Origin: Podochytrium sp. JEL0797
Lineage: Eukaryota; Chytridiomycota; Chytridiomycetes; Chytridiales; Chytriomycetaceae
Direction of reading: 5' to 3'
Assembly: GCA_027596195.1 (NCBI GenBank)
Contig: JADGJG010000021.1
Span: 1-64,000 of the forward strand
Length of the DNA: 64,000 nt
This document shows, piece by piece, positions 25,952-62,247 of this stretch. Numbering within the stretch: position 1 is the stretch's first letter; the number at the start of each line of letters is the position of its first letter. The notes below the pieces were generated by a model. It worked only from the letters and a program-made list of their open reading frames with translations, was not told where the DNA came from and did no database searches. A program made the position numbers and the translations under genes.

Positions 25952-26080
25952 AATTTTTTAATTCATCAGCGCCACTGGTGACTGACGCATTTCGCGTTTA
26001 CTAAAAAATACGCGTTCGGAACAAACAAATAATAAACAACATGGCGCATTGATAACATCGCCCCGACCCGTGTCCCCACA

Positions 26081-32712: not shown

Positions 32713-32753
32713 AGGAGCAACAACACATTCGGTTCCCACTAATCCTCTACGGC

Positions 32754-33632: not shown

Positions 33633-34120
33633 CTGTTTCTTCATTTGAATAAATATTCCTTACCGACTTCAAAAATCAAGCGAGTCAAACCCCCGCCACG
33701 TTCATTCGCAGACAACACCTGGTCTGGCAACAATACCACAATGCTTTTTACAAGCTTCCACGAAATTGAGCTGTCCATATACGCAGCCTACACGGTACCT
33801 TGTCGCGTCTGCGTTGAACGCGACCGTTGAACCCTGATGCGATTATCACCACGGCGCAGTCTGCTATCTTTTTTAATGAGTTCAGTTTGCAAAAAAACGA
33901 ATATCCGTAGTTTGTAGCAACATAACGGAAGGGAAGGTTTACTTTTTCCCCGCATTGCATTTTTCACTTGAATTCAATGTTGAACCCTATTCTCCCTCCT
34001 TATCAGTAGGCATTTTACGATCTCCTCGTAAAAGCGCAATTGGCAGTTCCGTTGCAATTTCACATAAAAAGAAACGGCGGAAAATAATTCCCACTACCAA
34101 AGAAGAATTTCATTAACCCA
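33633..34120. other. Intergenic spacer in GH16 array
   Basis: It contains a diverged promoter-like stretch, ATTTCACATAAAA, near 34056-34068, about 53 bp before the next start. It resembles the shared 19-nt element but is not identical to it. No other feature was seen. Confidence 0.4.
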
Positions 34121-35020: not shown

Positions 35021-35879
35021 CATTTTTCTTTGCGTGAATAAATAGATAAAGGATTTTGTAAAAACTTCGATTCTTCATTTCTAAAAATTGGACCTGCAAT
35101 GATGGTTTGAATGCGAGGAAGGACGGGTCTGGGAACATAACGCATCGAGAAGCGCATTTCCAGCGCATTCCTTGGCCACAGTTTAACGCGTTACGTAGAT
35201 TGAACTGAAGGGATATAATTCGCTTTCTCTTTGTTCTTCTCATTGTCTGCCAATATGATATGAGCAATGATTTTGTCGGGTGTTTTGAAGGTTTTTGCTC
35301 TTTCTTCATTCGATCAATTTATATATTCTGATCGGTTGGTGTTCACGACAATTTCGACGCCAGAGTGTGTCTTGAGCTCTGGATGTGCTAGACTCAAGGA
35401 CAGAACTGGAGCTGGGAAAACGCGTCCAATTGTTTCGGAGTTCAGCTGCTATTTTGTCGTTGTTGCATGACTACGCAATTTTCCGATGCATAATGAGGAT
35501 TTGAGTATGCGCGTGTGCGTTTGTTTGGCGTGTTTCGAAAATTGAAGACAATCTGAGGTGTTGGACGTCGACAAAAACGAAGATGGTGCGTTCTTCGAGT
35601 GTCGGTGGGCCAAGCAAGCGTACAAGGGCAAGGATCTCTGCAACGCTGCGGGCGGGTTCTACATTTCTAGGGGTTCAAAATTTGAGGAACCCCGCGAAGG
35701 TATTGTTGAACCTTTATTGGTGGGGCTTTGCAATTGCTTACAGTAAAATTGTAAATAGGAATTTGATATTGCGTTGTAAAATTCGCCATTATTAATTGTG
35801 CGGGCAGTTTCGCATAAAGGAAGGAACAAAAAACCCACTAAATTCCAAAAAATAATTGGCTGAGACGAAATCTAACGAA
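35021..35879. other. Intergenic region in GH16 array
   Basis: About 860 bp. The start of the region (TTCGATTCTTCATTTCT near 35068-35084) matches sequence after the third GH16 gene (near 36764), indicating that the 3' flank was duplicated with the gene. A 62-codon open frame at 35558 has no recognisable features. The 19-nt promoter element is at 35800-35818. Confidence 0.45.
35800..35818 (+). promoter_or_regulatory. Conserved 19-nt promoter element of GH16 paralog
   Basis: Second exact copy of GCGGGCAGTTTCGCATAAA, 62 bp upstream of the GH16 start at 35880. See the copy at 32694. Confidence 0.55.
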
Positions 35880-36725
35880 ATGATTGCAATCTGGTCTACC
35901 TTCTTGATGTTCGCAGCTGCCGCTGCTTCAGACGCATCCCCGAATTACCAACTCGCATGGTCCGACGAGTTTTCCGGAACCTCTCTCAACACGACCAACT
36001 GGTCCTACTACCTCGGAATCCATGTGAATGAATCTAATATCAACACTGCCGAGAGCGCCACGGTCCAAAACGGGAACCTCGTCATCACCCCAACCTGCCA
36101 AAACTCGACCATCCATTCCGCAAGAGTCGAGACGAAACACTCCGTCACCATGACCCAAGGCCGACTCGAGGTGCGCGCCAAGATGCCGCGTGGGAACTAC
36201 TTGTGGCCCGCGATTTGGTTGTGGTCTCAAACTGGATACACGAACGAGATTGATGTGGTTCAGATGGCTGGGTATGAGCCCACGAAGGCCGAAGGGAGCG
36301 TTCATCTTTACAACCAAGACCCTGCGAATCCACTCGTGAGTTATTCCAGTCGACCCACTCTTCCCTTCGATATGACGAAGGACTTTCACGTGTATGCCAT
36401 GAACTGGACAAGCGACACGGTCTCCTACTCTGTGGATGACATTCGAATCGGAGGTGTCAACTACACCGCGATGCTTCCTTCTGAAAATCTCTCGCGTGAC
36501 AAGCTGTTTCTCGTTTTGAACGCTGCTGTGGGAGGATATTACTTTGGTCCCCAAGTTCCAACGGACACTGCCACTTTGTGTGCCGACTCCAACAAGTGGA
36601 CTCCGATGTTGGTGGACTATGCTCGCATTTATCGCGATGTTTCCAGCGATATTCTGACATCAAATGGAATGAAAATGTCCACGGCCTGGTACTTTTGTTC
36701 CCTTTCTATTATTCTTATTATTTAA
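35880..36725 (+). CDS. GH16-like protein lacking the acid/base Glu, GPI-type tail (paralog 3)
   Basis: Single exon, 281 residues. The start is the ATG at 35880 (MIAIWSTFLMFAAAAASDAS); the frame is open a little further upstream but has no ATG. The active-site motif is EIDVVQ with Gln at codon 36261-36263. It has the shortest tail of the three copies: after YRDVSSD it goes directly to ILTSNGMKMSTAW and a hydrophobic end, with no Thr/Pro stalk. The three copies therefore differ mainly in stalk length, as wall proteins often do. All are on the plus strand and spaced 0.5-0.9 kb apart. Confidence 0.88.
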   Translation: MIAIWSTFLMFAAAAASDASPNYQLAWSDEFSGTSLNTTNWSYYLGIHVNESNINTAESATVQNGNLVITPTCQNSTIHSARVETKHSVTMTQGRLEVRAKMPRGNYLWPAIWLWSQTGYTNEIDVVQMAGYEPTKAEGSVHLYNQDPANPLVSYSSRPTLPFDMTKDFHVYAMNWTSDTVSYSVDDIRIGGVNYTAMLPSENLSRDKLFLVLNAAVGGYYFGPQVPTDTATLCADSNKWTPMLVDYARIYRDVSSDILTSNGMKMSTAWYFCSLSIILII

Positions 36726-41255: not shown

Positions 41256-41488
41256 GTTTGTGTATATAGAAGTATAAAAATAAATAGATTCAATGAAAAA
41301 AGAAATTGGTTGTGGCACACGTGACCTTTTTCGCGTGGAAAGTGCCAATTCAATTTTCATTCCCAATCCTGCTTAACCTGGGTAGATGGACTTGAAGCGC
41401 AAGACCCTTGCTACGACAGCTGGCAAGCCGCAAGAAGGGTATTGATGCGACCTTAGTTGCTTATTAACGCGGATCAACCTCATCTCAC

Positions 41489-44400
41489 GTGTTTCCGCAA
41501 AATCCAAACAGATCCATCCGCATGTCAATTGATCGTGTGCGTTCATCAGCCGACTCTAGTCGTCAAATGTACGTTTTCGAATCACTGATTCCAGCTTATC
41601 CCCCTCCGAATCACTCCAACATGTCAACTCATCAACGGCCACACCCGAAAAACAGGCCAATTCACGAGAAGCGCAAAACTGGTTTCTTTGCCAACTTTGA
41701 ATCTATGGCCCTTAGGCTCATGCAACATACTCCTCCTCCGTCACCCCCAAGCCCGGTCACCCAATTCCCCAAAACCCTCATCCGAGAGAATACCAATGTC
41801 CAAACTGGCCACTTGAAAAGAACCGTTCCTCGAGCCGAATCAATGCTTGTCGTTGACAACTTGACTGAACTGACCCAGTTGGACCTGTTTCGGCGTCTCA
41901 AGATCCAGTGGGTCGAAGCCACTTCCAACGGTCTTGACATTGATGCCGAGCACCGTGTCGGCCTTTCCGCGTTTCTCGCTGCCATGAATGGAACGGCTCA
42001 CCTCAAGATTAGTGAACCCGAATCCCTCGACGCGGCGCTCAAATCTTCGGTCCACATTCTCTCCAGCAGTTATGACGTGCATTCTGATGATCCTCACGCT
42101 GCTCAGGTTTGCGTTTCTTTGATTTTCCTTTTCTTTCCATCAAATCGACCTTTAGTTTTCCCTCTAGTTGGGCCTGATTCGCCTCCTCACTGCAGGAATG
42201 TCCCACAACCTCCACAGAGCCGAAATCGTCCGAGGTGCCATGATTCTGCGCGTTTTCTTTATGTCTCGTGGTGGCAGTGCAGTTCGTCTCGAGCTGATTC
42301 GAGTTCTCATCAAGTTTATCGACGCGCGTGTGACGCCTTGCGTTCCTCTCAGAGGATTTCTCAGCGCTGGTGGTGATTCGATGTCGCTCGCTTATATTGC
42401 TGCTTTGATTAGTGGTAGATTCGATGATGTCGAGAAGGCCGCGAAGGGTGAGCAAATTTGTTTTGATATCCGAAATTCGCGCATCTGAAAATTTTCGATC
42501 AGGACCGCGAGGCCAGTTCCTCACTGGAAAGCAGGCTCTCAAACTCGCGGGAGTCGCGAGTCCGATCGTTTTGGAGGACAAGGAGGTTTTGGCCCTTGTG
42601 AAGGGATCGTCATTCTCGTGCGCGATGGCGGCTTCTTGTGTTTTGGAATCGCACGTGAGTTTCGTTTGATACCTCCATCTTTTCGTGAACCAGAATTCAA
42701 CGCTACTTCCGAAACCACAGTCCATCGCGCTCTTGGCTCAACTGTTGACAGCTTTCAGCATCGAGGTGCTTGTTGGTTGTGTTGATGCGTTCGATCCCGC
42801 CGTCGCGAAACCGAGATCCCAACCCGGTCAAACCGAGCTGTTTGAGAATATTTCGCACCTTCTCCGCGAGTCCCAGCTCGTTGGAAAAGACAAATCCAAA
42901 CTGGTTCCTTTGCTCTGGGGAAGAACTCTCCCTCATAACACATCCAGCTCTAGCACAGCATCACAGTGGCTTTGCCCGCTCATTGAATGCCTGACTTCAA
43001 TCACCAAGACGTTGGAAATCGAGATCAATATTGGTGGTACGAATCTCTTTTTTTCGGCGTTTTCGCGTTGTCTTCACGAAAAACATCTAATTTATTTTAT
43101 CAGCCGAAAAGAAGAATGGAGGAACCGAACGACCTCCTTCGGTTGCTGACGCCATGGACCGTCTCCGCCTCCAGCTCTGTAACGCCGGTCGTCTCATTTT
43201 CGCCCAACACTCTGAAATCATCAACCCGGCGTTGAACCACGGCCTGCCTACCAATCTGGCCTGGGGCCCTCCATCGACTGACTTTGGCTTCAAGGGACTC
43301 GACATGTCCATGGCTTCGTATCTTTCTGAACTCGGAGACTTAGCGCTTCCCGTCCAATCCGCGGAACACCAGCCTGCCGCCTCGATGGCCCTCATCTCTG
43401 CGCGAAAAACGGAACGAGCGATTGAGCTTATCCAAATGCTGTGTTCGTGCCTCATTCTGTCTCTGTGTCAGGCAGCGGACTTGCGTGCGCTCGAAAGCGC
43501 CATCAGCGAACGCACACGTGCTGCGATGGTTCGCAGTGTTGATATTCTGAATGTCGTTGAGTCAGACGCGTTGGTTGACTCGTTGATGACTGTTTTTGGT
43601 ACCAAGTTGATCGAGTGCCGTGGCCTCGGGTTCGTAATTGACTAATTTTTAGTTTCCTCCCCAATACTAATTGCGTGCCCTGTATAGATGGTCTGAACGC
43701 GTGGGGGTTGCTGTGAAGTTTGTTTTGGATCACCTTGTCGAGACTTCTCAAAGTGGTATTTGCGGCGACGCTCAAATGGACGCGTTTGGAAAGATGTTGC
43801 GTGAAACTGTTGTCAAGGGGGTGCATCTCGCGCAATTGGATGCGGGCTCTGGACACGGTTCCAAGTATCTATCGTCTTCGTCGAAGCGGATGTACGAACA
43901 CGTGCGCAAGACCAAGAATGTGTACGTGTCCTTCTTGAACCCCCTCTCCCTCGAGGCCTGACCCTATTTTTCGTCATCAACCAGCCACATGTACAAGGAC
44001 GAGGCCATGTCCAATATCGGTCGCATGTTGGACCAAGTGCTGGCTTTTGTTCAAAAACGCGAGGAACTCGATGTTGTCTTGCTCGACTGTTTCGCTGGGA
44101 TGGAATCGGGGCGCGTTACCGCTTCGAATTCGGATGACCACGAGTTCTTGAAAGTCGAAATCCCTTCGTCGGTGACGCATAGTCCATCTGCGGCCAAACC
44201 CAGCCTTCTCAACGCTCCTGCGTATACGGGATCTGCGCCTCTGACCATTCCTCGCTCTGTATCCGTCGACATCGATTCGCTGAATGCCGACGCGAACTCG
44301 GTCGCCATTGTCGGAATCGGCCTGCGTTACCCCGAAGGAATCGAAACAACTGACGCGTTTTGGGACATGCTTGTCAACGCCAAAGATTTGATTACCAACA

Positions 44401-47400
44401 TCGACCCCAAAGTGCGCCAATCATTCAAGAACGCGTCGCCTTCCATTCGCGGAGGCTGGCTGTCGAAGGAGATGGTGGAAGAGTTTGATTGCACTATGTT
44501 TGGATTATCGCCAACCGAGGCGAAGTTGATGGATCCACAGCATCGAATCGTATTGGAGACTGTTTACAGCGCTTTGGAGGATGCGAACATTCCAGCGGAT
44601 TCCCTGAGGGGGACGGACACCGGTATGTAAAGTTGCGAATCTCATTGGGATTTTTCTGAGTCGTCCGGCTGTTTTCCCAGGTGTGTTCATGGGATGTCGA
44701 CCAACTGGACACGACGTTCGCGCCCGCGACTTGTACGGAGATGGTGCCATTCCAAGGCACACCGCGACAGGAGCCGATCTGGCTTTGTGCGCGAACAGAG
44801 TTTCTTTCTGGTTGGATGTACTCGGTCCCAGTTTCTCTTTGACGTCGGCTTGCAGCACTGGAGGAGTTCTGTTTGATTTGGCGATTCGTTCGGTGCTGCA
44901 AGGGCAATGCAAGACTGCTCTCGTCGGAGCCATGTCGATCATTTCTCATGAGACCACGTTCTCGATTCTGGAGGCCGCTGGTAATACCTGTTCTCGCCAA
45001 AATTGCACTTCTAACACACACATCTTTCAGGTATCCAAACTGTTGATGCTGGACGATGCGCTTCGTATGATAAGGATGCGGATGGATACGTTCCTTGCGA
45101 GTCTAGCGTCGTATTTGTTATCAAGCGGCTCGATGAGGCCGTGAAGAATGGCGATCGAATCGTGGCGACCATTTGTGGAGTTTCTAATCGACACAAGGGG
45201 AAGGAGGGTCTCGGTATCACGTATCCCTGCCGCGAGGCCAACACCGCCGCCATCAACCAGTGTCTTTCTGAAGCCAAGTGGAAAACAGACGACGTTGACT
45301 TCATTGAGGCACATGCGACTGGAACCAAGGTAAAGGATCGTTGAACTTTGCGTGGAGTTTCTAATTCCTCGAGTTTGGCAGTCCGGTGACCCTATCGAGT
45401 CTGCTGCCATCGCACAATCGTTTGTTGGACGAAAACGGTCTTCTCCACTCCTCATTGGCGCTGTCAAGTCCATTTTGGGCCACACAGAGAACGTTGCGGC
45501 GCTCACCGCCATCGTAAAAGTTGCTCTCGCCATGAGCGCGAACGCGATCCCTCCGACTCTTCTCGATCCCAAGAGGCTGAATCCCGCTGTCGACAAGTCC
45601 TTCAAAACGATCCCGGCCATTATTCCAACCTCGTCGGTCCCGTGGCCACAACAACAAGATCAAGACAAGAAAGCGCTTGTGTTGGCCGCTGGTCTTGGCG
45701 GTTCCGTTGTCGCTCTTGCTCTCAAATCACCACCGTCCTCGGCCCTGAACGTCTCTCCTTCCGCGGCTACGCGTGTTCTGACCATTTCAGCGACCAGTGC
45801 CGGATCTCTGTCTGCTCTTCGTGATTCTTATGTTGCTCTGATTTCCAATACCCGGGAGGATGAGATTGCACGTCTTGCGGTTTCTTCCAACTTGGCACGT
45901 CAGCACATGCGCTTGCGTCTCGCGATTCCAGCTGGCACCAAGGAGTCACTCTTGGCTACGTTGAAGAAATGGGCGCCAGCTAAAGCTGCGAAGAAGCAGC
46001 CCATTGTCTTTGTTTTCCCGGGCCAAGGGTCGTTGGACCTTCAAGCCTGCGCTGCTATGTTCAAATCCGTCGCCCCCTTCCGCGACGCGATCAAGGTGCA
46101 TTATTCTCACCTTTCTAATTTTTTTCTGTTCAATTCTAACAAATTTCTTCAACAACAGGAATGTACGGATGCGTTGACGAAAATTGGCCTTCCCGTTTCG
46201 ATCCTTGAACCAGTTTTCAGCGGCGCAACGGAAGTTCGCGGCGAATACGAGCAGGCTATTCTCTTGATACTCCAATACTCGATCGCCAAGAGCTTGATGC
46301 AAGTCGGTATCAGACCAAGCTGCGTTGTTGGCCATTCTTTTGGAGAGATTGTGGCCGCTACGATCGCGGGTGCTCTTACGCTCGAAGCTGCACTGGTTCT
46401 CACCCACGAACGCCACAAGCCAATGCTCCAACCCGGATGCAGTGGTTTTATGACTTCCATTTTCGCGTCTCTCGACGTGGTTCAGAGAGCCATCGCTGAA
46501 AGTGGTGCGGAGGTGGATGTCGCAGCCCACAACGGGACTGGTCTGTTCGCCATTTCCGGCTCCGAGCCTGAGGTCGGCAAGGTTGAAGCCGCTCTTTCGA
46601 CTGCTGGAGTTCAGTTTCGCCGACTGCCCAACATCGTTGCCTTCCACTCCCGTCGCGTCACTCAAGCGGCTCTGTCTTTCCAGGATTCCATGAAGGACCA
46701 ATACACCAGGGGGGCTCTTGAGATTCCCCTTGCTTCCTGCCTAACCAGCGAAATTTCGCCTATCAACTCGACGATTCCGTTGATTCACTGGGTCGACCAC
46801 ATCACCCATCCAGTCCTGTTCGCCCCCACCATCATCACCATTGACGGCGAGTTCAAGAACGCGATTTACATCGATATCGGCGCCGGCTCAATGAGTTCGC
46901 TGGTGAGACGTCATCTTGCCTTCCCTGGTTCCGATAGGCAATATCTTGCTGCGCTTTCTATGCTCCCGTCGCTGTTGGCTAGTCTTTACATTCGTGGTGT
47001 CGATATCGATTGGGCGAAGCTTCACGGAAACATCCTTTCCCGCTCTTCCATGTCTGCGCTACCTCTCTACGCGTACTCTCGTGTGCCTGTGTGGGACGAT
47101 AAAGTCGGACTCTTTGCCCCGGGCAAGGAGGTCGTTCATCAAATTCCCAGGCGATTCGCTTCCACTTCTGCGCCCAAGTCCAAGATTGTTCTCGTTGGGG
47201 TCGGTTTGAGAATGCCTGGTGGTGTTGAGTCGCTGGATGACCTATGGCGTGCGGTGAATGCCGAAAGTGTGGCTCCAGGATCACTTCCGTCGGATCGACC
47301 TCTGTTCCTGTATGAGGGAAGTCAGAAGGTCAAGGGAAACTTTTTGTCGGATGCCTTCCAGATGGATTGCAAGCGATTTGGAGTTTCGGAGGAGGAGGCA

Positions 47401-50400
47401 TGGCTTACTTCGCCGCGGTTGCGTGTTCAGTTGGAGACGGCTTGGAAAGCTGTCGAATCCGCCAACATCATTCCCTCCGAGGTTTCTCCGTTTAGATGTG
47501 GCGTATTCACCGCGAACTCTGGAGGGTCGAATGACTTGTATTCCAACCACATCATGACGAGTGAGCTTCTGAACGACCGGCAGATGACTCAACCATTGGG
47601 GCTGTTTGTTCCGGAAGAACCGTTTTACATTGCTGAGAAGGTGCATCTCTCGTTGCTTTTTCGCATTTGCTCGAGTCGCTGATTTCTCTCGTTTTACAGC
47701 TTGGGTTCAAAGGAGTATGCACGTCAGGAACTAACGGATTCTGCGACTCTGCACTTGGCATGCTTCAAACTGCGTCGGACGCGCTGCAGTCGCACCGCAT
47801 CGACGTCGCTCTGTGCAATACAGTCAATCTGTACGAAACGGGTGGGCATTTACGCACTTCTATCCCCTATCGTTCCATGGCCGGTGGAGCTCTTGGAGAA
47901 GGCGCTATATCCGTTGTCCTCAAACGTTACGAGGATGCTGTCCGCGACGGGGACGAAATCCACGCGATTCTCGGGGAACCGCTCTGTATGGGCTCTCTGG
48001 AGCTGTCGGATCTCCGTTCCACGAACTTGGCACAAGCGTTAGACCAAGCCGGCCTGCCTCCAAAAGCACTCGATCTCCTTCTCTGGGGTTCCCATATCTC
48101 CAAAGCGGAGGATGCCGAAGCGTACGCGAAAATGGGTTTCGACTCCCTGCAAACATCGACTGCAATCATGACATTCGGCAAAATCTTCGAGGTATGAGTC
48201 TGGGATGTCGTTTGTTTCAGGTTCCAGCTAACAAATCCCCTCTATTTTCCAGCTACAAGGACTGTTCGGTCTCGCTGCGGTGTCTCTCATGATGAAGCAT
48301 GGCAGAATTCCTCCGTCCTCGCCGTCCCTTTCCCGCATCATGTTTTCGCCAAAACAGCAATCTTTGCTGAATTTCGAAATTGGCGGTGTTCCTTCTTGGT
48401 CGCGTCGATCTGACGGAACTCCGCGAAACGCGGCGCTTATGCTTCCCGGTCGTGCGAGAGCGGCCTCCAGCATTATCCTCACTGAAGGCGGTTCGGACCC
48501 TGTTGGGTCGAAACAGCCAACGATGTATCTGTTGGTCGTGTCTGCGGATTCTATCAAGTCTTTGGCCGCCATGTGCACCAACTACGCGAACGCCGTGTTG
48601 AGCGCGCCGAACCTGGCGGCATTCTGCCAAACGTCGAGATTGGGGCGTGTTGGGCTTGATTTCAAGGTAATTTACGCTCGAATATAAGGTGATCAGACGT
48701 TTGTTGTTGACGCAGTTTCTATAAGGTTGCTGTGTACGGGCGCTCTGCTTCCGAGTTGAGCTCGCGTCTCAAAACCGTTGATTTCCGTCAAGTTCAACTC
48801 TCTGCTTCGATTCGCTCAGTCGTTGTCGTTTCTGAGACGGCCGTTGCCCTTGACGAGATCCACGGCAAGTGCGGGCTGAAAGAAGTGCACAGTCTGTCCT
48901 CCTGTGATGGTATCCAGAGCGTCGCAGCAATTTTGGCAGCCCTTGGCCTTGCGGAACCCATCGTGACTGCTTCTGCAGTCCAGAATTCCAAGGACAGTTT
49001 GGTGGTTGTTGCTGGAAGCGATTCCTTCTTTGCTGGTGTCGTGTCAGCAATATCTTCTGACGGCCTTGCTGTGAACGTTTCCACCATGTCCTCGGTTGAG
49101 GAGCTGTTTGCTGCTTTCTACCCCTGCTCCTCTCAAACGCGTTTCGCGGGTTTCGACAACATCACCGAATCGATCGCACATGGCTCTGCGTCATTGCCGA
49201 GTTATGTCTTCGACAGACATGCGGTGACTATGCCATTTCTTGAGGGGCGAGATCTCAACGCACTCGTTCAACCGAAGAATGTGATGCCAGTCACGTTCAC
49301 CGGTATGACGGACGCGATTCCGCCAATGATTCGATCACTCGTCTTTGGAGACAACGAGTGGATGCTTGATCACAAGCTCCGCAACGGAAAAATCATTCTG
49401 CCCGGTGCTGCGTTGGTGAACATGTCCTTGGAGGCCTTGACCAAGTCCGCCGTTGTAACTTCCCTCTCGTTCTTGCGCCCTGCGTATATCCAACAAGACA
49501 TGGAGTGCGAGTTTGTCGTTGTTCCTGCCGCTTTCGGAAACACTTTCACCATCTCTGTTGGAGGTTCCATCCACTGCTCCGGTGCATTCTCCCTTCTTCC
49601 GACACGCGTATCTCCCGCGTTTGAAAATATCGACACCCAACTTGTTGGACTGCTTGCTAGCGGATCTGCCTTGGACCCCATTTCTTGGTACGAGACTGGC
49701 GAGAGCGCGATTAAGTATGGCCCCAATTTCCAAAACGTTGTGTCGCTCCGCGTGTTCGATGACGAGACTGCTTTGGCGCGTGTCGAGCTCCCGGCTGACG
49801 TTTCTGGTACCTGGATCGTCCACCCTGCCATGTTGGATGCGTGCTTCCACATGATGGCGGTAGTTTCGTCGGATGGTTCGCTTCCCGTGCGAGTGGAGGA
49901 TATTTGGGTCTCGGACGCTGTGAGAAGTGGCGAGTTTCCACGATCAGTGTGGTGCTACCGCCAAAAGGTGGATATTGTTGGAGAAGCGACGAGAAGGCTC
50001 CGTGGCAACCATCTCAGCATTTATGACGCCTCAACGGGAGTCTGTGTGATGGTCGTCGGGTCGTTGGTTGTTCAGTTGCCGGGCTCGGAGTCTTCCGCGA
50101 CTGAAGAGGCGGACTCTTCGCTTGTGTGGGTAAACAAGTGGGCTGCGGTGGAAATTCCGGAAACCAAGGAAGCGCAAACGATTTGGTTGCTCGTTGGTGA
50201 CAACACGGACGTCATTGCTGCGCTTTCGTCGAGCAACACATTTTCGCGCGTTATCGGTGGGATGGAGAACGTGGCAGACGTGATTGATTCTACTCCCTGG
50301 GCTGAGTGGAGTGAAGGTGAGAAGCGGTTGTGCTTTTTGGTTACTTGGAGAATCTCTAACTTTTCAACAATCAGGTGGCGTCTCGTCTCTGCAAATCGTC

Positions 50401-53400
50401 TTCTGCGGAAACATGGTTTCCGCTCTCAACGTTTCGACTGGGTCCGAATGGTGGAAACACGGCGGTTATCCTCTCTTCATGCGTGTGTGGAACGAGGTCA
50501 ACTCCAGACGCGTCAAAACCATCGAGTCCATTTCTGCCGTCATCATCACTCCGGGTCTTATGACTGCCGACGGTGCAGTGTCAAGAGATTCCGCACTCAC
50601 CGGATTGATGCTCAACATTCGCGTCGAACTTCGCATGTCTGCCAAGGTGCTCTACCTGGACTCGGCCAACCTCGGCGCGTCTCTCCAACAAGCTGTTTCC
50701 ATCTTGAAGCACCCGCAGAACTACGAATCTGGCTCCTATACTTTGTCTGGCTCGAGACTCGAGAGCCAGTCCTACAATCCGCTTCGCGATGCTCCAAGAA
50801 GGCAGAAGCGCGAGAGCACCATGTCGATTCTAATCACGGGAGGCGTCGGCGGTTTGGCCATGGCCCTTGCGATGCATTTCCTTTCGCAAGGCCACAGTGT
50901 GACTCTCGCTGGTCGAAGAGGAGTCTCCGATTCTTCAGTTGAATCTGCGTTGAAGGAGGCTTCCAGCGATCGCGTGCAGTACATCCAATTGGATGTGAGC
51001 GACGCAGTCGCAGTTTCTTCTGCGCTCAAGAGCGGACGGTTTGACGGGATCGTGCACTCGGCTGGTGTGCTGGAGAATGGTCTCTTCAGCAATGTTACCG
51101 ATGCTGCCCTCAAGAAAATCGGCCAGCCCAAGGTGGAAGGCGCGCTGGCGATTCTCTACGGACTACCGGACGACAAGCCTTGCACTGTTGTGTTCACGTC
51201 CTCTGTTGCCGCGGCCATCGGTTCCTTTGGACAAACTGGGTATGTCCTGGCCAACACCGTGATGGATGGATTGGCATTGGAATACTCGAACACGCGGCCA
51301 AACCTCTGCGTGCGGTCGGCCCAACTCGGACTTGTCGATGGAGTGGGAATGGCCAATGACGCAGCCGACTCTCACACCAGCGGGGAAGTGACCATTAGCA
51401 AGGAGGATACGGTTGACATTCTTGCGTCGATTTTGCAAAATCCGTTGGGCTTCCCTCCTTTAATCGTCGCTGCGCCACTTGGAAAGTTTTTCAAATCCCT
51501 CGAGGTTGCGCCCAAGCTGAAGGTGGTAACTGCTGCGAGCAAGGATGAAATCGCTGCCTTCATTTCCGAGACGATGATGTTATCGATGGGATTCGACGAA
51601 GCACCTGACGGGGGTGCCAGATTCTCCGATCTCGGTGTGGACTCGATCACGTCAGTGTCCCTTCAGCAGAGTGTGGTGGAAAAGTTTGGAGTCATTGTTC
51701 CACTTCTGGACCTGTTCCAACTGACTCCCGACACGTTGGCCGATCAAGTCTTTGACCTGATTATGTCCGCCGTTGAGAACCAAGAAGCCGCTGCCGACCA
51801 AAGTAATGAATTCAATTCCTCTTTTTTCTCACGCGATTCTAAGTCAAGAAATATTTTAGCTGTTCCGCGCGCGGTCTCTGAGGAGCTTTCTTCAGATGCA
51901 ATCACTTCTGCGCGTTCATTCCGGGGGGGCATTGACGAACTGAGTGAGTGAAGCCTCGATTGCCACGGACGACAACTAATTGAACTTTGGAATGAAACAG
52001 TGGTCAAAAACGATATCCACACCGTGACTGACATGTTGGCTCACCACGTCTCTGTCAGACCATTGGCGCCTTTCATTCAGCTCTCCGCATCTACACAAGA
52101 CTTCATCTCCTTTGAAAAGTTCAACAAGCTCTGCGACTCTGCCACCCATGTCATTTCCAAGGCATTTGAAGGCGTAGCCATCGACCCGGCGAACCCTCCC
52201 GTGGTTGCAATTCTTTCTGGGACGTCCCCGGAGGCTATGGTTACTACCGCAGCGGTTTGGAAGCTAGGTTGGATGACAGCCATGCTGAACCCGCGCACGG
52301 TACTCCCATTGTTGATTCGGCAAGCCCAAGCGGTCACGATTTCGGCCGTCATTGTGTTTGACGAACGCGACATTCCGGCTGCAACAACTGTTGCTGGAAC
52401 ACTCGCCGCGCCAATGCTTAATATCACGTCCGAGATTCTCTCCGCCAACGATGGCAAGCCTTCGGCTGCTTCTTTGCCCGTCACTCGCGAAACCCCTCTT
52501 TGCTTCTTGTTCTCTTCTTCTTCTGTTGACGGAACTTCCATCAAAGCCGCCCGTCTCACCCACTACCAGGTCCTCGAAAGCTGCAAGACACGCGACCTGT
52601 TGTGGCAAGCACCTACGGGCGAAGGCCGGGTTCTAGCTTGGCTTCCTTTCTCCCACGTCATCGGGTTGATTGTTGACTTCATCAACAACGGGATCTGCTC
52701 TGGTATGACATTGTGCCTCCGACCGTCAAGAGAGCACCCTGCGACCCCTGATTTCCTGCTTCAAGACATGCAGCAAGTCAAACCGACGTTGATGTATACG
52801 GTTCCGTGGATGTTGGACTGTTGGGTGTCACGATTCCAGAGCAACCTCGATGGAATTGACGCGTTGCGTGGGATGAAGGCATTGATTGCTGGTGGTGCTC
52901 CATTGACCCCAACAACGCGTCAGTTCTTGGTCGCGAACGGTGTTCGAGTGATGGAAGGAATGGGTGCGACCGAGGCCGCAGGGACTATTTTGACTGCCAT
53001 TCCAAGATCTATCGAAAGTGGTCCGCCGAGGGATGAGGAAGGTTGGATGGCCCCGATGCCTGGATTTGGTGTGGCAATCGAACCGGTGCCGGGATGGGCA
53101 AGCGAATTCGGTCAACTGACAGTCACTGGTCCGTCGATTTCGAGATACGTTGTGTCGGCACGTTCTGGGGAGAGCTGTGTGGGCTTGACACCCAGAAACC
53201 TCTTGGCTGATGGAAACGTCTTCCGCACTGGTGACATTTTCGAGAGGAGAGTCGTCAGTTTGGGTGAGGGATCCGAGTTTGAGGAGTTTCGTTTCGTTTC
53301 CCGCTCCGACGATGCCGTCATGTTGAGCACGGGCTTCGCTGTCGCCCCTCGAATGCTCGAGGAATATCTCGTTTCTCACTTTGAGGAAGTCTCTGCGGCC

Positions 53401-53634
53401 TGTTTGTTGAGCGACTTGGCCGGAATCCCTCGTCTCGTCCTCCAATTCACGTCTCCGCCCGTTCCATCTGCTGTCGACGTTTTGAAGAAGATTTCAACGG
53501 CAATCCACAAGTGTGCTCCGGAACTTCAACTGAAGGAAGCGGACTTGGTGCTGTTGGGCTCTGAATTTGCAATGCCCAGAAGCCCAAAACAGACTATCTT
53601 GCGTGGACTGTTGCGGTCGAAGTTGTTTGCCTGA
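41489..53634 (+). CDS. Fusion megasynthase: ammonia-lyase-like domain + type I PKS + AMP-ligase
   Basis: Seventeen exons: 41489-42106, 42168-42447, 42503-42654, 42694-43033, 43104-43629, 43688-43921, 43985-44622, 44681-44980, 45031-45329, 45382-46095, 46159-47640, 47700-48191, 48253-48666, 48726-50316, 50375-51802, 51860-51943, 52001-53634. All junctions keep frame, giving 11,226 nt or 3,741 residues. Domain order (approximate residues): Pro-rich leader 1-115; PAL/HAL-like 120-760; KS 820-1245 with Cys987, His1124, His1163; AT 1335-1640 with GHSFGE (Ser1427) and an AFHS motif usual for malonyl-specific ATs; degenerate KS 1708-2160; DH 2330-2620 (His2379, Asp2534); KR 2840-3040 (Ser2969, Tyr2983); ACP 3080-3160 (GVDS, Ser3117); AMP-ligase 3198-3741. 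No ER, methyltransferase, thioesterase or reductase domain was found. A single polyketide-making enzyme is inferred. The exact start is uncertain (ATGs at 41489, 41522, 41624). RNA evidence for one transcript is lacking. Confidence 0.82.
41850..44150 (+). other. PAL/HAL-like (MIO ammonia-lyase fold) domain, catalytically degenerate
   Basis: Homology is clear from VTPCVPLRGFLSAGGDSMSL (42331-42390; PAL has GSISASGDLSPLSYIA here), NAGRLIFAQHSEIINPALN, GLPTNL, DFGFKGLDMSMASYLSEL, VQSAEHQPAASMALISARKT and LCQAADLRALE. The Ala-Ser-Gly that cyclises to the MIO group is Ala-Gly-Gly (42366-42374, residues 273-275). The YGVxTGFG loop with the catalytic Tyr has no counterpart in the SSSYDVHSDDPHAAQ stretch before the exon 1/2 junction. 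The QDxYxxR motif is replaced by a Ser/Thr-rich segment (PHNTSSSSTAS). The fold is kept while the chemistry is apparently lost. Confidence 0.8.
44301..46905 (+). other. Ketosynthase and acyltransferase domains of the PKS
   Basis: KS starts at SVAIVGIGLRYPEGIETTD. The active-site segment is LTSACSTGG (Cys987) instead of the usual DTACSSS; the histidines are in EAHATGTK and KSILGHTEN, so the Cys-His-His set is complete. AT starts at IVFVFPGQGS and contains VVGHSFGEIVAATIAGAL and IVAFHSRR. These are the only apparently functional elongation and loading domains in the protein. Confidence 0.85.
47180..48660 (+). other. Second, degenerate ketosynthase (KS0)
   Basis: It begins KIVLVGVGLRMPGGVESLDD and follows a KS layout (GEGAISVVLKRYEDAVRDGD). 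The segment aligned to the nucleophile is VCTSGTNGFCDSAL, with Gly at the Cys position (about residue 1871). The first His motif reads LLLWGSHISKAEDAE in place of EAHGTGTxxGD, and the second, GKIFELQGLFGLAAVSLM, lacks GHT. Condensation is therefore not expected here; decarboxylation or a structural/chain-length role is possible. Confidence 0.75.
49180..51780 (+). other. DH, KR and ACP domains of the PKS
   Basis: DH: DHKLRNGKIILPGA (His2379, one residue longer than the standard HxxxGxxxxP), KYGPNFQNV, and HPAMLDACFH (Asp2534). KR: SILITGGVGGLAMALA, FTSSVAAAIGSFGQTGYVLAN. ACP: FSDLGVDSITSVSLQ with the phosphopantetheine Ser3117. The set would give reduced, unsaturated (ene) units and no full reduction. 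Confidence 0.82.
52001..53631 (+). other. C-terminal AMP-binding (acyl-AMP ligase-like) domain
   Basis: ANL-family motifs: FSSSSVDGTSIKAARLTH (A3-like, atypical Gly content), LAWLPFSHVIGL, ALIAGGAPLTPTTRQFL, MEGMGATEAAGT (A5), NVFRTGDIF (A7), SRSDDAVMLSTGFAVAPRMLEEYL (A8) and PRSPKQTILRGLL with the A10 Lys. It follows the ACP directly, with no condensation or second carrier domain. It could activate a free acid for transfer to, or release from, the PKS; the direction is unknown. Confidence 0.8.
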
Positions 53635-54028: not shown

Positions 54029-55599
54029 ATGCTCGCCCCAACGTTCATTCTTGCCACACTGGCTTCGGCCGCCTTGGCGCAAAACTCCACTTCAGATGCC
54101 TCTGTCTCACCACTTGTAGGCGGCGACATGTCCTGGATCATCATGGCGTCCGCACTCGTCTTTCTCCAAATCCCAGGCCTCGGATTCTTTTATGCTGGCC
54201 TCGGCGAATCCAAAAACTCTCTGCATACCCTCCTGGGCGTGATGCTTGCCTTCTGCGTCGTGTGCGTCCAATGGGTTCTGTTTGGATACAGTCTGGCCTT
54301 CTCGGACACGTCCTCGTCGACATTCATTGGAAACTTTCAATACGCTGCGCTGCTCAACACTATGACAACCGAAAACTCGATCGCTGGAACTATTCCGAAC
54401 GCGCTGTTGGCTATGTACCAAATGATGTTTGCTTGCATCACGCCTGGTCTCCTAATTGGTGGAGTTGCGGGTCGCATGCGACTGCTTCCTACCATGGTCT
54501 TCGTCTTTTTGTGGACCACCATCGTGAGTGTTTTTTTTGGTGTTCGGCTGTCCAGTGACCTTGTGGCTGAACTTCAATTTTTTCCCAGGTTTACGACCCA
54601 ATCGCTTACTGGAGCTGGTCTTCCAACGGATGGCTGCACTCGCTTAACGTGATGGACTATGCTGGAGGTTCTGTCGTTCACTTGTCCAGTGGAGTTACTG
54701 GGTTCGTCCTCGCTCTCATGCTCGGCAAACGCGTCGATTACGGCACTCGCGAATACAAGCCTCACAACCCCATGTTTGTCTACATCGGCACGGCTCTCCT
54801 CTGGTTTGGTTGGATGGGATTCAACGGCGGGTCTGCACTTGCATCGAACCAGCGCGCTGTCGGCGCCGCGTTCGCCACCAACATTGCCGCCGCGGCTGGA
54901 GGTCTCACGATGGTCGGTCTCGAGTCCCTCGTGAACAAGAAGAAGTTCTCGTCGATCGCGTTCTGCAACGGAGTCGTTGTCGCGTTGGTTGCCATCACTC
55001 CAGGTTCTGGATTCGTTGAGCCCGCGATGGGTCTCCTGTTTGGTATCCTCCCCGCCATTGTCTGCTTCTACGCCGGAAAGTTTGTCCACTACTTGAGGGT
55101 TGACGACGTGCTCGATGTGTCTGCTTGCCACGGGGTTGGAGGTGCCTTTGGAATGATCCTCACTGGAATCCTCGCCCAGTCCAACATCACCGACCTCGAC
55201 GCTAGCATCACGGCACCTGCAGGTTGGATCAGTGGCATGTGGATCCAGGTCCCCGTTCAACTTGCCGGGATCGCTTCCGTCGCGTTGTGGACGGCTGTTT
55301 GGACTGCTGTGATTGTGTTGGCCGTGAATGCGATTCCGGGGCTCAAGATGAGGTGCAACAGCGAAGCGGAAGCGATGGGGTTGGATGCTTATGAAGTGGG
55401 TGAAGATTGTTATCCTGTCACGTACTCGCAGGTTCCTACGATTGAGGTTTCGTGTGAGAAGGAAAAGTCGATCACGTCGGAGGAAGAGTTTGTTGCGAAA
55501 CGTAGTGAGGAGCGGATGCTTTCGGACGCGTCACCGCACCCTTCTTGTGCTACGTTGATGGATGGTGGGATTGTGATTGATTGCTCGCATACGCGATGA
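54029..55599 (+). CDS. Ammonium transporter, Mep/Amt family (right copy A)
   Basis: Two exons: 54029-54523 and 54589-55599; 501 residues. Leader MLAPTFILATLASAALAQ. Motifs: DMSWIIMASALVFLQIPGLG, FLWTTIVYDPIAYWSWSSNG, MDYAGGSVVHLSSG (first pore His), LWFGWMGFNGGSALASNQ and VSACHGVGGAFGM (second pore His). It lacks the intron after the first membrane-start motif that the other copies have. The C-terminal tail is long and acidic/Ser-rich (KSITSEEEFVAKRSEERML) and ends in a SDASPHPS motif also present in copy B, possibly a phosphoregulated tail. It is 394 bp downstream of the megasynthase gene, same strand. A and B form a close pair. Confidence 0.92.
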
Positions 55600-56102
55600 T
55601 TGTCTCTTTCTTGTTTCGTTATACCCGCATCATCAGCAATCGTCGCTTATTGTTATATAAAATAAACTTTCGTTGGATATATTACTTTTTGAAGCACTTT
55701 GATTTGCATTCCTCCTGAGACTTTGTCTGAGTGAACGTGAGATGAAGAATATTTGCACTACAAAATATTCGCATTCAAGGGCATAAATGACGAGGAAATT
55801 GTTTCCAATGAATGAGAACATGAAACAATTCATTTTGAGGTCCGTGGCAGGCCTCACTTGACAAAGATCCTTCACATTTCTTACTCCACAACTTGCAGGA
55901 TGGATTGATACATGCTATCCAAAGTCCGATAATGAGTTATGGCGCAGTGGCAGCTGCGCGAGAGAAAAAATCTGGATCCACAACGCGGGATAAGATTGCA
56001 ACAATTTTTTTCAGATAAGATTCCAAAGGGGGGGGGGGGGGGGGGTACTTGAAGAAGAAGAGCATTCGAAAATCGAGAGAAAACTTCCTCTTTAACTCTG
56101 CG
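55600..56102. promoter_or_regulatory. Spacer with two GATAAGAT boxes and a G18 tract upstream of copy B
   Basis: GATAAGAT occurs at 55989-55996 and 56014-56021, about 110 and 85 bp before the start at 56103. Directly downstream is a run of 18 G at 56028-56045, close to the likely transcription start. The homopolymer may be real or an assembly artefact. No other gene was seen in this 500-bp stretch. Confidence 0.5.
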
Positions 56103-57784
56103 ATGTCCAAACTGCTTGCGCTGTCTCTCCTTGCTTCCACGGTCATGGCTCAAAACGCCACAGCCTCTCCGCTCGACAATGGAGACATGTCCTGGGTTAT
56201 TATGTCGGTTGGTATTCTTCTTCGGCACTTGCAGTACTGTTCTGCAGTCGTAGTGCGAATCTAACAGCGCCAAAACAGTCCGCACTTGTCTTTCTCCAAA
56301 TCCCAGGCCTCGGATTCTTTTACGCCGGTCTCGGCGAATCCAAAAACTCGCTGCATACCCTCCTGGGCGTGATGCTTGCCTTCTGCGTTGTGTGCGTCCA
56401 ATGGGTTCTGTTTGGATACAGTCTGGCCTTCTCGGACACGTCCTCGTCGACATTCATTGGAAACTTTCAATACGCTGCGCTGCTCAACACTATGACAACC
56501 GAAAACTCGATCGCTGGAACTATTCCGAACGCGCTGCTGGCAATGTACCAGGTTTGTTGCAATCGTTTTGACATTAGTAATGACGTTTCACTGATTTCTT
56601 GGCACTTTTTCTTTCAGATGATGTTTGCTTGCATCACTCCCGGTCTTCTCATCGGTGGAGTTGCGGGTCGCATGCGACTTCTTCCCACCATAGTCTTCGT
56701 CTTTTTGTGGACAACCATCGTGAGTGTTTTGTTTTCTTGTTCGGCCCCGTCAAATGACTTTGTGGCTCAACTTCAATTGTTTGCACAGGTTTACGACTTT
56801 ATTGCGTACTGGAACTGGTCGTCCAACGGATGGTTGCACTCGCTGAACGTGATGGACTATGCTGGAGGTTCTGTCGTCCACTTGTCTTCTGGAGTTACTG
56901 GTTTGGTCCTCGCTCTCATGCTTGGCAAACGCGTCGACTACGGCACTCGCGAATACAAGCCTCACAACCCCATGTTCGTCTACATTGGCACAGCTCTACT
57001 CTGGTTTGGTTGGATGGGATTCAACGGCGGGTCTGCACTTGCATCGAACCAGCGCGCTGTTGGCGCCGCTTTCGCCACCAACATTGCCGCAGCGTCCGGT
57101 GGCCTTACCATGATGGCTCTTGCGGCTTTGGTCGACAAGAAACGGTTCTCGTCAATTGCTTTCTGCAACGGAGTCGTTGTCGCGTTGGTCGCCATCACAC
57201 CCGGCTCTGGATTCGTCCAACCCGTCTTTGGAATCTTTTTTGGAGTTCTCCCTGCCATTGTCTGCTTCTACGCTGGAAAGTTTGTCCACCACTTGGGGGT
57301 TGACGACGTGCTCGATGTGTCCGCAGGCCACGGGGTTGGAGGCGCTTTTGGAATGATCCTCACGGGAATCTTTGCTCAGCACACCGTCACCAACATCGAC
57401 GCTGGTTCTGGCACTCCCACGGGTTGGCTCGATGGCGCCTGGATTCAAATCCCAATCCAGCTTGCCGGGATCGCCTCTGTCGCTCTATGGACGGCTCTTT
57501 GTACTGCCGCCATTGTGTTGTTCATCAACATGATCCCGGGGCTCAAGATGCGTTGCAGCAAGGAGGCGGAATTGATGGGACTTGACGCGTATGAGGTCGG
57601 CGAGGATTGTTACCCCGTTGCGTATAGTCCTGTCGCGACTTCCGCACTGCCTGAAAAGTGCGAAGTGGTCTCAATGGTTGACAGGGAAAGTAAAGAACTT
57701 TCGGACGCGTCTCCTCACCCTTCTCAAACCACTCTGGCTGGAAATGGTGTTGAAATCGTGTGTTCGCGGGCACCTCGGGTTTGA
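56103..57784 (+). CDS. Ammonium transporter, Mep/Amt family (right copy B)
   Basis: Four exons: 56103-56207, 56279-56551, 56618-56719, 56789-57784; 491 residues. Leader MSKLLALSLLASTVMAQ. Most of the exon sequence from ALVFLQIPGLGFFYAG onward is near identical to copy A, including DNA, while introns and the N-terminus differ, so the pair reflects recent duplication or gene conversion. Motifs: MDYAGGSVVHLSSG and VSAGHGVGGAFGM with both pore histidines, LKMRCSKEAELMGLDAYEVG after the last membrane helix, and the tail motif SDASPHPSQTTL. Introns after IMS, MYQ and TTI match positions in other paralogs, so copy A probably lost two of them. Confidence 0.92.
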
Positions 57785-58156
57785 TGACGGCATTTTCTTT
57801 TTTTATTTCCCTTTCTGTTGTAAAAATAAATAATGAATGCAATTCCCTGGAAAAAAGGCGTAACCCGCTGCTAACTACAATATTTTTCTCCCTTTTCCTC
57901 ACTTTTGTTGATTCCACGGCACGAGGGTTCATTTCCCACTTTCCCCGAAGGCGCATTTCCGTCATTCATTCATTGGCATTTCGCGGAATGACTCATGTAT
58001 AATCTCAACTCGCCAACCCAAAAGGTCTCGATGCGATTGTGATAGGAGGATTTGAGATGCCTTTCCTTTACTCGAATAATGACTTTCTATTTTCTTACTT
58101 TGCCGTCCTTCTCGAATCTCGGCGAAAATACCACTTCCAAAAATAATTTTTCAAAA
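57785..58156. other. Intergenic spacer upstream of copy C
   Basis: About 370 bp, no GATAAG core on either strand. Only a GATAGG at about 58040 is present. No gene was seen. Confidence 0.4.
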
Positions 58157-59740
58157 ATGACCCCACGTCTTCTTCTTGCCGCTTGCCTCTGGCAGCTTGC
58201 CAGCGCACAAAATTCAACAGTGATTAACAGTCCATACGTTTCTGGAAACGAGGCTTGGCTTTTGATTTCGGTTTGTATTGTCGTTCATGACCTTTCCAAC
58301 ACTCACTGCTCGCTGCCAGTCTGCGTTGGTCTTCCTCATGGTTCCAGGCCTCGGATTCTTTTACTCTGGTATTTCCGAAGCCAAAAACTCCATGACAATG
58401 CTGGTATCAGTTTGTCTTGCCTTCTCTGTCGCTGCTATCGAATGGTCGCTCATGGGATTCACACTTGGTCTATCTGACACATCGGGCTCAAAATTCATTG
58501 GTTCGAATCGTGACTCACACTATCAAGCTAGATCTAATGCTACTTTTAGGTGACTTTCACTACGGCGCGTTGCTGAACACGATCCATTCGGAAAACAAGC
58601 AAGCACCAACCATTTCAAACACTCTCTTTGCCCTATACCAAATGATGTTCGCTTCCATCACCCCGGCTCTGTTCCTTGGCTCCGTTGGAGGCAGAATGAA
58701 AATCTTGCCAATGATGGGGTTCGTGCTCTTTTGGTCCATCATTGTGAGTGAATTTTTTGGCAATTTTACCGCAATTTAGGAGTTTGAAAATTATCTTGCA
58801 AGGTCTACAACCCAATCGTTTACTGGGTCTGGAGTGCCAATGGATGGCTTCATAATTTGAACGTTATGGACTACGCCGGTGGGTCCGTCGTGCATGTTTC
58901 TTCAGGCTGTACAGCGATCGTTCTTGCCATTATGCTCGGCAAACGCGTCGACTACGGAAAACGCAAGTTTGTCCAACACAATCCTACCCATGTGTATCTC
59001 GGCACCGGTCTTCTCTGGTTTGGATGGATGGGATTCAACGGAGGATCGGCATTTGCGGCTAACCCGAGAGGCGCGGTAGCTGCGTATTCCAGCAATTTGG
59101 CTGCTGCCACGGGTGGAATTGTGTGGATGTTCTTGGAAATTGTTGTGGAAAAGAAAGGAACGAGCACCGTCGGATTCTGCACTGGCGCGATTGCAGGATT
59201 GGCCACAATCACAGCTGGTAAAGTTGCTAAAGTGATCATGCAAAATCTAAATACGCATTTGTTTTTCCAGGTGCTGGATTCGTTCAACCCGGCTTTGGAA
59301 TTATTTACGGCTTCCTTGCGGCCATCACGTGTTTCTACTGCATCGAATTGTGCCACCACCTACACATTGACGACTCTCTTGATGTGATGGCCGTGCACGG
59401 TGTCGGCGGTATCCTCGGAATGATTTTGACCGGAATTTTCGCTGAATATCGTGTGACGGACTTTGATGCGCCTGGTTCAACTGCTGGATGGGTGAACCAT
59501 GTCTGGATTCAAGTTCCCATTCAGCTAGCTGCTATTGCTTCTATCGGCTGTTGGGCAACGGCTTGGTCGATCATTATCATTCTTGTTGGTGAGAGAGTGT
59601 TTGGAGTGAAATTCAGATGCACTGAGGAAGAGGAGCTGATGGGTTTGGACCTCGCCGAAGTCAAGGAGCCAGCGCATCCTCTTGCATATGAAGAAATTCC
59701 GAAGGAAGAAAAGGTGGTCGCATACAGCGAATCGGCGTGA
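58157..59740 (+). CDS. Ammonium transporter, Mep/Amt family (right copy C)
   Basis: Five exons: 58157-58270, 58320-58500, 58550-58743, 58803-59217, 59271-59740; 457 residues. Leader MTPRLLLAACLWQLASAQ; the CLWQLASAQ part recurs in copy D, so the signal peptides are homologous. Motifs: ALVFLMVPGLGFFYSGISEA, MDYAGGSVVHVSSG, LLWFGWMGFNGGSAFAAN and VMAVHGVGGILGM with both pore histidines. The tail is short (VKEPAHPLAYEEIPKEEKVV). It differs from its neighbours by AEYRVTDFDAP where they have AQHTVTD, a change in the loop after the second pore His. Same strand as the rest of the array. Confidence 0.92.
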
Positions 59741-60473
59741 GGAAGAGGGTGTTAATAAATCAAATTTATATTCGTTTTTCATCTTTCCTTCCGTCATTGG
59801 ATAAGGTAATTTGTTTTTAAAATGGTACAGAAGTTTTTTTATAAATCGATAAAAGGGAATGAATGGTTAATTGACCTGTTTGTTATCCATATCTTCTTTT
59901 CAGCCCCCACCCCCCAGAAACCCCCCCTCTCCCTACGCCCCCCTTCCCTCACTTTTAGCTTGTTAATAATATTTCGGCCAAAATCTGCAAGGACGCGGCA
60001 ATTGCTCAGCCGATGCTTGGCGTTGACGCCGGGTGACTCGCCGATGGATTTGTCATTAGATAAGCTGCTTGGAGCCAAGGCAGTTGGCCGCTTGATTTTG
60101 CCCCGCCATCTGCCCCAATGAATTCCGTTCTCGATTTCTCTTTTGTCTTCTTCAACCTGCAAGCAACCTCGCTCGTGGATTCCTGAGAAAAAAAGAAAAA
60201 TGAGCAAAGATTTCTTCTTTTCATTTTTCCTTCCGATAGCATGCATCCTTGATCATATTCAAGCAACTGATTCTAATTCGGTGTTTTACGTATAGTTTGA
60301 ATGCTGGAATGTAATGCGGTAGTTAACCGCTTTTCCACAATTACTAAGCTAGTCGCAAGCGCCCAGTTCCCGCGCCAATGAAATTTAAATTCGACAAGTC
60401 AGTCACCGTTGCGACAACTTTTCTATAAAAGGGCGGACGAAAACAAACAACATCCTCCAGAAACATCTCCAAA
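59741..60473. other. Intergenic region upstream of copy D
   Basis: About 730 bp, the largest spacer in the array. It has a C-rich pyrimidine stretch at about 59903-59951, one GATAAG at 60059-60064 about 410 bp before the start, and a TATAAAA at 60424-60430 about 45 bp before the start. No gene was recognised. Confidence 0.45.
60424..60430 (+). promoter_or_regulatory. TATA box of ammonium transporter copy D
   Basis: CTATAAAAGGG lies 44-50 bp upstream of the ATG at 60474, the clearest TATA element in the array. Confidence 0.55.
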
Positions 60474-62052: not shown

Positions 62053-62173
62053 TTATTCCGCCATGAACATTTTACGCACATAACATATTTAAATAAAACA
62101 TCTTTCTCTCCTTTTGATCTGGCCCCAAAAAGGGATCCTGTGTGGCACTTCCCGAATTTTCGGATGAGTCGGA

Positions 62174-62181
62174 GATAAGAT
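62174..62181 (+). promoter_or_regulatory. GATAAGAT box upstream of copy E
   Basis: GATAAGAT 67-74 bp upstream of the start at 62248, the same octamer and similar distance as in copies A and B. Inferred GATA-factor nitrogen-response site. Confidence 0.5.
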
Positions 62182-62247
62182 CGTGCACCTGTTGGAATAA
62201 TTTTCGCGAATGAACCAGGGCAAATTCATTGTCAAATCGTCACGAAT

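Follow-up and report, generated by a model that had tools for sequence, protein, structure and literature searches.

The gene at 41386-53634 (+) of a 64,000-nucleotide stretch of the chytrid Podochytrium sp. JEL0797 (Chytridiales) probably encodes a member of a chytrid family of self-priming cinnamoyl/coumaroyl type I polyketide synthases (PKSs), and this member appears to have lost self-priming. The stretch (GenBank assembly GCA_027596195.1, contig JADGJG010000021.1, positions 1 to 64,000) is called the window below. The gene has 19 exons and 3,714 codons with 0 internal stops, and links an aromatic ammonia-lyase domain, a type I PKS, and an AMP-ligase. As a rule, separate proteins make the starter, activate it, and extend the chain. 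The lyase-PKS-ligase architecture is real, apparently undescribed, and present in several chytrid genera; the chemistry itself is apparently of a known kind.

A Pfam profile search (E<=0.01) over five pieces covering the initial gene model gives a match for each domain. Residue numbers (res) refer to the encoded protein.

41831..43519 (+), phenylalanine ammonia-lyase (PAL)-type aromatic ammonia-lyase domain with a damaged active site (res 96-575; PF00221, Lyase_aromatic, 2.6e-75; TIGR01226, 317.6 bits)
44298..45570 (+), first ketosynthase, KS1 (res 795-1165; PF00109/PF02801, 1.3e-57 and 7.6e-28; Cys-His-His present)
46006..46893 (+), acyltransferase, AT (res 1311-1585; PF00698, 2.8e-25; GHSFGE and AFHS present)
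47179..48483 (+), KS0 (res 1681-2075; second KS Pfam match, 1.4e-17; aligned by eye to KS1)
49308..50057 (+), dehydratase, DH (res 2331-2580; PF14765, 2.5e-16; His and Asp present)
50821..51375 (+), ketoreductase, KR (res 2816-3000; PF08659, 2.4e-29; Ser/Tyr/Asn present)
51541..51765 (+), acyl carrier protein, ACP (res 3056-3130; PF00550, PP-binding, 9.2e-06; Ser of GVDSI present)
52015..53634 (+), AMP-ligase (res 3176-3714; PF00501, AMP-binding, 3.5e-30)

With KS, AT, and ACP in one polypeptide and their catalytic residues present, the protein is a type I PKS. No enoyl reductase (ER)-type family is in its Pfam list, and it does not qualify as a fully reducing type I PKS; no thioesterase family is in that list either. 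We take the AT to be malonyl-type from its motif. Compared with the ANL adenylate-forming enzymes, the ligase gives a mixed picture: it is over the cut-off of PF00501 and has TGD and the Arg of the motif that we take to be A8, but its loop is FSSSSV and the Lys of the presumed A10 motif is shifted. Its best match in the Protein Data Bank (PDB) is weak (6e-08).

The lyase domain was compared, residue by residue, with those of a paralogue in the same genome and of Siphonaria, and with the paralogue also as DNA. The damaged sites are as follows.

42056..42091 (+), Tyr loop site, with a 42-nt deletion (DVYGVDTAFGG in the paralogue; protein and DNA alignment)
42357..42389 (+), position of the triad for the 4-methylideneimidazole-5-one (MIO) group, A-G-G for A-S-G (protein alignment)
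42928..42963 (+), position of the QDRYSLR motif, HNTSSSS instead (protein alignment)
43015..43123 (+), region that spans an intron and holds the positions of NDNP (TDNP in the paralogue), with a 21-nt deletion, and of HAGNFQ, changed and with a 9-nt deletion
43352..43393 (+), position of QSAELHNQ, reduced to QSAEHQ with the Glu kept (protein and DNA alignment)

MIO is formed from A-S-G, and its Ser is essential; this triad is absent from the window lyase. All five of the other stretches (Tyr loop, NDNP, QDRY, HAGNFQ, and HNQ) are deleted, replaced, or changed. The window domain fails the curated PAL model TIGR01226 (317.6 bits against a cut-off of 519.15), unlike all three of the other lyases scored, which are those of the paralogue (P0002, 526.9), Siphonaria (P0003, 537.5), and a free lyase on contig C240 (523.4). 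The top-scoring PDB entry for the paralogue lyase is 1w27, PAL 1 (E 5.1e-114), presumably the parsley enzyme. Sites identical in the paralogue, C240, and Siphonaria are changed in the window in 68 of 396 cases, and the converse tests give 16/344 and 24/352. With Siphonaria as outgroup, the lyase core has 73 window-unique and 21 paralogue-unique changes (chi2 28.8). The ammonia-lyase part of the window copy therefore looks like a pseudoenzyme, and the window protein is not expected to produce a starter of its own, whereas the paralogue is.

The assembly (24.4 Mb, 995 contigs; locus counts are lower bounds) contains at least four Lyase_aromatic loci: a histidine ammonia-lyase (HAL; C734), the free lyase (C240), the paralogue, or twin (C358), and the window gene (C124). 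The HAL, whose first part has a hutH score of 300.9, adjoins urocanase; a neighboring frame matches urocanate hydratase at 9.7e-71. We considered whether the fused domain is the HAL of this genome and ruled this out, as C734 is a separate locus and shares 29-32% identity with the paralogue lyase. KS matches are found on at least four contigs, namely those of the window gene, the twin, a FabF-like frame (C82), and a fatty-acid synthase (C125) with FAS_I_H, KS, and phosphopantetheinyl transferase. In this census, no type I PKS other than the window gene and its twin turned up.

The paralogue and C240 lyases both have intact active sites. The C240 gene (G000:C240, about 6241-8805; locus L015) is PAL-type and is closed by a stop beyond its lyase tail; its contig has no match to any PKS part of the paralogue. 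A tree of eight lyases places C240 together with the fused lyases of the Podochytrium window gene and twin (91/96 support, slightly below the 95/80 mark), with Siphonaria and Obelidium outside, which suggests that the free lyase derives from a fused ancestor. The window branch is 0.29 long, versus 0.067 for the twin. The window and C240 lyases share LIRLLTAGM (L-L) where the twin and Siphonaria have H-L, a position that we take to be the selectivity dyad. We do not rely on a substrate prediction from this dyad; the FlxA paper reports that the motif misled (PMC3992019).

It is possible, and we hold this only tentatively, that the window lyase domain has gained a new MIO-independent function as a scaffold, an aromatic-acid sensor, or a docking site for the free lyase. 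The clustering of the free lyase with the Podochytrium fused lyases fits such a function, as does a dN/dS below 1 (0.26 for window versus paralogue). So does the fact that the deletions are in frame only: in the DNA alignment of the lyase part with the paralogue there are just five gaps (42, 21, 9, 12, and 6 nt), and each length is divisible by three. However, the downstream domains require the frame anyway, and the faster evolution fits relaxed constraint.

Several other chytrids appear to have members of the family. Among the best 120 of 172 matches in a whole-protein search (2,084 candidates scored), the only lyase-bearing entries are the window protein, the paralogue (77%), Siphonaria sp. 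JEL0065 (56%), and Obelidium mucronatum; the Siphonaria record is flagged UNVERIFIED_CONTAM, and the Obelidium protein (P0004) is partial at both ends. A search with the paralogue lyase, limited by length to giant proteins (2,072 scored), gives seven matches, which are these four, Chytriomyces confervae P0123, Aspergillus P0122, and P0121 from an Omnitrophota metagenome-assembled genome (MAG). The Aspergillus protein (lyase, SNF2, and DNA methylase) seems to result from merged models of separate genes, and we disregarded it on our own judgement. The lyase-ligase-ACP part of Chytriomyces gives five matches (7,999 scored, E<=1e-10), of which Nowakowskiella sp. JEL0407 P0124, from a different order (Cladochytriales), is new; the window protein (P0001) was not returned by this search, so true relatives can be missed by these searches. 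Among prokaryote genomes, a scan for relatives of the lyase produced 95 pattern matches, none of them confirmed as a relative.

Lyase, PKS, and ligase are thus found in one protein in the window, P0002, P0003, P0004, and P0123, and in P0124 by its lyase tail only, where the model begins. The initial annotation of this DNA proposed one polypeptide with the order PAL/HAL-like, KS, AT, KS0, DH, KR, ACP, AMP-ligase, and the same order recurs in the paralogue, Siphonaria, and, from the lyase tail on, Nowakowskiella. The Chytriomyces protein, which is cut at its N-terminus, reads lyase-ligase-ACP-KS-AT-KS0-DH-KR-ACP, and its ligase is homologous (35-37% identical). PF23562 is found below threshold in the Nowakowskiella and Chytriomyces ligases and not in that of the paralogue. 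We read the two layouts as the same parts linked in two orders, the Chytriomyces order matching an expected starter-loading module. A ligase-ACP pair before the KS, which we take to be the loading layout of hispidin synthase, is present in Chytriomyces and not in the window, where the ligase is C-terminal. The earlier suggestion that the product may be started with an activated acid gains strength from the ligase and extra ACP directly before the Chytriomyces KS.

By-eye alignment of KS0 places Thr at the catalytic Cys position in the window and paralogue and Ile in Siphonaria, Obelidium, and Nowakowskiella; Chytriomyces P0123 has no Cys there. Neither catalytic His of KS0 is in place, although in the window and paralogue a His lies two residues away from the first.

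From the sequence, frame, architecture, relatives, and residues kept or lost, we infer the chemistry, the supply in trans, and the product class as follows. In intact members, the PAL-type lyase would strip ammonia from L-Phe or L-Tyr, and the fused ligase would convert the resulting cinnamate or coumarate to an acyl-AMP and load it on an ACP. KS1 would extend the loaded starter with malonyl units from the AT, and KR and DH would leave conjugated double bonds, with no enoyl reduction. KS0 may be a structural part or a gate because it is missing its catalytic residues. Given KR and DH, and no ER or thioesterase detected, the expected product is an acid of the aryl-polyene type. As its lyase appears to be a pseudoenzyme, the window copy would have to get the acid from elsewhere, most simply from the free lyase on C240 or the intact twin on C358, and may keep the dead lyase domain as an in-frame structural part. 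A more elaborate proposal, which we regard as rather doubtful, is that chytrids have an all-in-one megasynthase taking a free aromatic amino acid directly to an aryl-polyene, and that the system has split in Podochytrium into a self-primer, a scaffold copy with a dead lyase, and a released lyase (with the same dyad as the dead domain) feeding in trans.

Several observations weigh against a self-priming family with a window member that has lost this capability. The window ligase follows the terminal ACP, so that loading would use that ACP. This ligase has an unusual nucleotide loop, FSSSSV for TSGTT, and an unusual A10 motif, P-x-x-x-K-x-T, both conserved in the chytrid family. The Glu of the QSAE motif is retained in the window lyase. 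The MIO region is covered in three fused proteins, with the triad intact in two (paralogue and Siphonaria) and not in the window; this region is outside the models of Obelidium, Chytriomyces, and Nowakowskiella. The excess of window change extends to DH (9 window-unique versus 2 paralogue-unique changes, chi2 4.5) and ACP (6 versus 0, chi2 6.0), which fits a wider loosening. No tailoring cluster was seen by eye among the open reading frames at the lyase end of the twin (C358, about 14,900-19,999 of a 20.6-kb contig), and that part gives no clue to a product.

The position of the ligase could also mean that it acts last, activating or releasing the finished chain or coupling another acid, with the lyase serving in regulation or in the handling of ammonia. 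In favor of this, the window, paralogue, Siphonaria, and Nowakowskiella proteins all have their ligase behind the final ACP, and the Pfam list has no thioesterase. We consider this unlikely, as the homologous Chytriomyces ligase and its extra ACP have the layout of a loading module, and a starter pathway of lyase plus ligase is known with separate proteins.

The PKS and ligase parts of the window copy look constrained. Their dN/dS values for window versus paralogue are 0.09 (KS1), 0.13 (AT), 0.13 (DH), 0.07 (KR), 0.08 (ACP), and 0.07 (ligase, where dS is 1.63, close to saturation); the value for KS0 is 0.22. Window-unique and paralogue-unique changes (Siphonaria outgroup) are 13 and 8 in KS1, 9 and 6 in AT, 18 and 29 in KS0, 2 and 3 in KR, and 23 and 32 in the ligase. 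It is thus very improbable that the gene as a whole is a decaying pseudogene. The lost lyase active site, the faster lyase evolution (73 versus 21), and the same direction of change in ACP and DH would fit decay, but 3,714 codons are open, the catalytic residues of KS1, AT, DH, KR, and ACP are present, and dN/dS is 0.07-0.13 across these domains and the ligase.

At fourfold sites, the window gene and the twin have an identity of about 0.5-0.7 as far as codon ~3200, which falls to 0.36, 0.28, and 0.23 in the ligase (52001-53634), as would follow if gene conversion had homogenised everything except the ligase.

The gene model was rebuilt from the sequence. An initial spliced model from ATG 41522 (17 exons and 16 GT-AG introns) is open with no internal stop. 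The N-terminus of the paralogue HDU98_007801 is MDTKRKTLGNTAGKPQEG, and taking out two extra introns gives the window gene a closely similar start at ATG 41386; we adopted this ATG and the two added 5′ introns because the paralogue N-terminus shows them. The final model has 18 introns, all GT-AG and 50-87 nt long.

Exons 1-10 (+): 41386-41438, 41512-41568, 41656-42106, 42168-42447, 42503-42654, 42721-43036, 43104-43629, 43688-43921, 43985-44622, 44681-44980
Exons 11-19 (+): 45031-45329, 45382-46095, 46159-47640, 47700-48191, 48253-48666, 48726-50316, 50375-51802, 51860-51943, 52001-53634
43985..44622 (+), fusion-junction exon, one exon with both the C-terminal tail of the lyase (43989-44030) and the start of the KS (44298)

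The uninterrupted junction exon contains the lyase tail MYKDEAMSNIGRML and the KS start SVAIVGIGLRYPEG (44298-44339), and the fusion is therefore independent of splice guesses. The ACP-ligase junction crosses two introns. Its short linker exon is also found in the paralogue, whose protein maps letter for letter to its own contig (C358, 18 exons) and backs the link; Siphonaria and Nowakowskiella proteins have the same ACP-ligase order. The NCBI model of the window gene (HDU98_004585, P0001) likewise joins lyase, PKS, and ligase and is 98% identical to the rebuilt model; it adds an upstream seven-transmembrane (7TM)-like gene (recognized by eye) and omits two coding stretches present in the paralogue. 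The sequence confirms that lyase, PKS, and ligase form one predicted polypeptide, with real frame continuity and domain order. The initial annotation was right in this and in having the ACP-ligase junction span introns. Its single gene stands, but not its figures of 17 exons and 3,741 codons from 41489, a position that is GTG rather than ATG and is located in intron 1 of the corrected model. It also placed the PAL-KS junction at the intron 43921/43985, and the junction is actually inside the following exon. False joins do happen, as the 7TM-like gene appended by NCBI illustrates, but that lyase and PKS are two genes joined on paper only is barely credible with the junction within one exon, the fused order recurring in Siphonaria (56% identity over 97% of the query), and all five lyase deletions preserving the frame with no stop in the lyase domain. 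Five in-frame gaps out of five would be expected about once in 240 if the frame were under no constraint and one third of gaps were assumed to be in frame.

To our knowledge, the basidiomycete hispidin synthase (HispS) has no fused lyase. It is like the chytrid proteins in being a large fungal PKS, making hispidin from caffeic acid (PMC10923510). Flexirubin initiation uses the tyrosine ammonia-lyase FlxA and the CoA ligase FlxY to feed a polyene pathway like type II fatty-acid synthase (PMC3992019). The likeness is in the passage from lyase to ligase to KS, KR, and DH reactions that lead from an aryl-acrylate starter towards a polyene; the flexirubin enzymes are separate bacterial proteins of type II, and the paralogue lyase is far below the cut-off of the FlxA model (210.7 versus 700). 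The Hppa unit of turnagainolide involves tur2 (annotated as a histidine ammonia-lyase), the ligase tur1, the ACP tur4, the KS alpha/beta pair tur5/6, and the KR tur3 (PMC12094020). It shares Phe deamination, activation, ACP loading, a KS with a second KS-like partner, and a single extension with KR. Unlike the chytrid fusion, it consists of separate proteins, a type II PKS feeding a nonribosomal peptide synthetase, in a pathway proposed by its authors. The Omnitrophota protein P0121 (partial, on a 7.6-kb contig) is a bacterial AMP-ligase fused to two PAL-type lyases (ligase-lyase-lyase, 2,535 aa), both with A-S-G. It differs in having no PKS domain in its Pfam list, and its ligase is 25-29% identical to the chytrid ligases over the aligned parts. 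Among the texts consulted in PubMed Central, where most subscription papers are outside the coverage, we found none that describes a fusion of lyase and PKS, whether from chytrids or from other organisms. The initial annotation knew of no described enzyme with this domain order, and these texts and our protein searches agree with it.

A chytrid lineage that fuses starter and extension enzymes, reorders them between genera, and loses or releases the lyase would amount to megasynthase engineering carried out by nature. Few studies deal with the secondary metabolism of chytrids, which would gain a specific and testable product class, and the family is a potential ready enzyme for aryl-primed polyketides from Phe or Tyr.

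Seven genes for ammonium transporters (PF00909) flank the lyase-PKS gene, at 24217-27469 (-) and 54134-63927 (+), and an eighth locus is just past the window (C124:65023-66514); eight of the 11 such loci counted in the assembly, a lower bound, are here. A link between ammonia release by the lyase and these transporters is unproven, and the census, again a lower bound, lists none on the contig of the twin (C358). The window also contains four similar GH16-like frames, three of them in tandem, at 32712-36725 and 404-1204 (-); the one tested matched PF00722.

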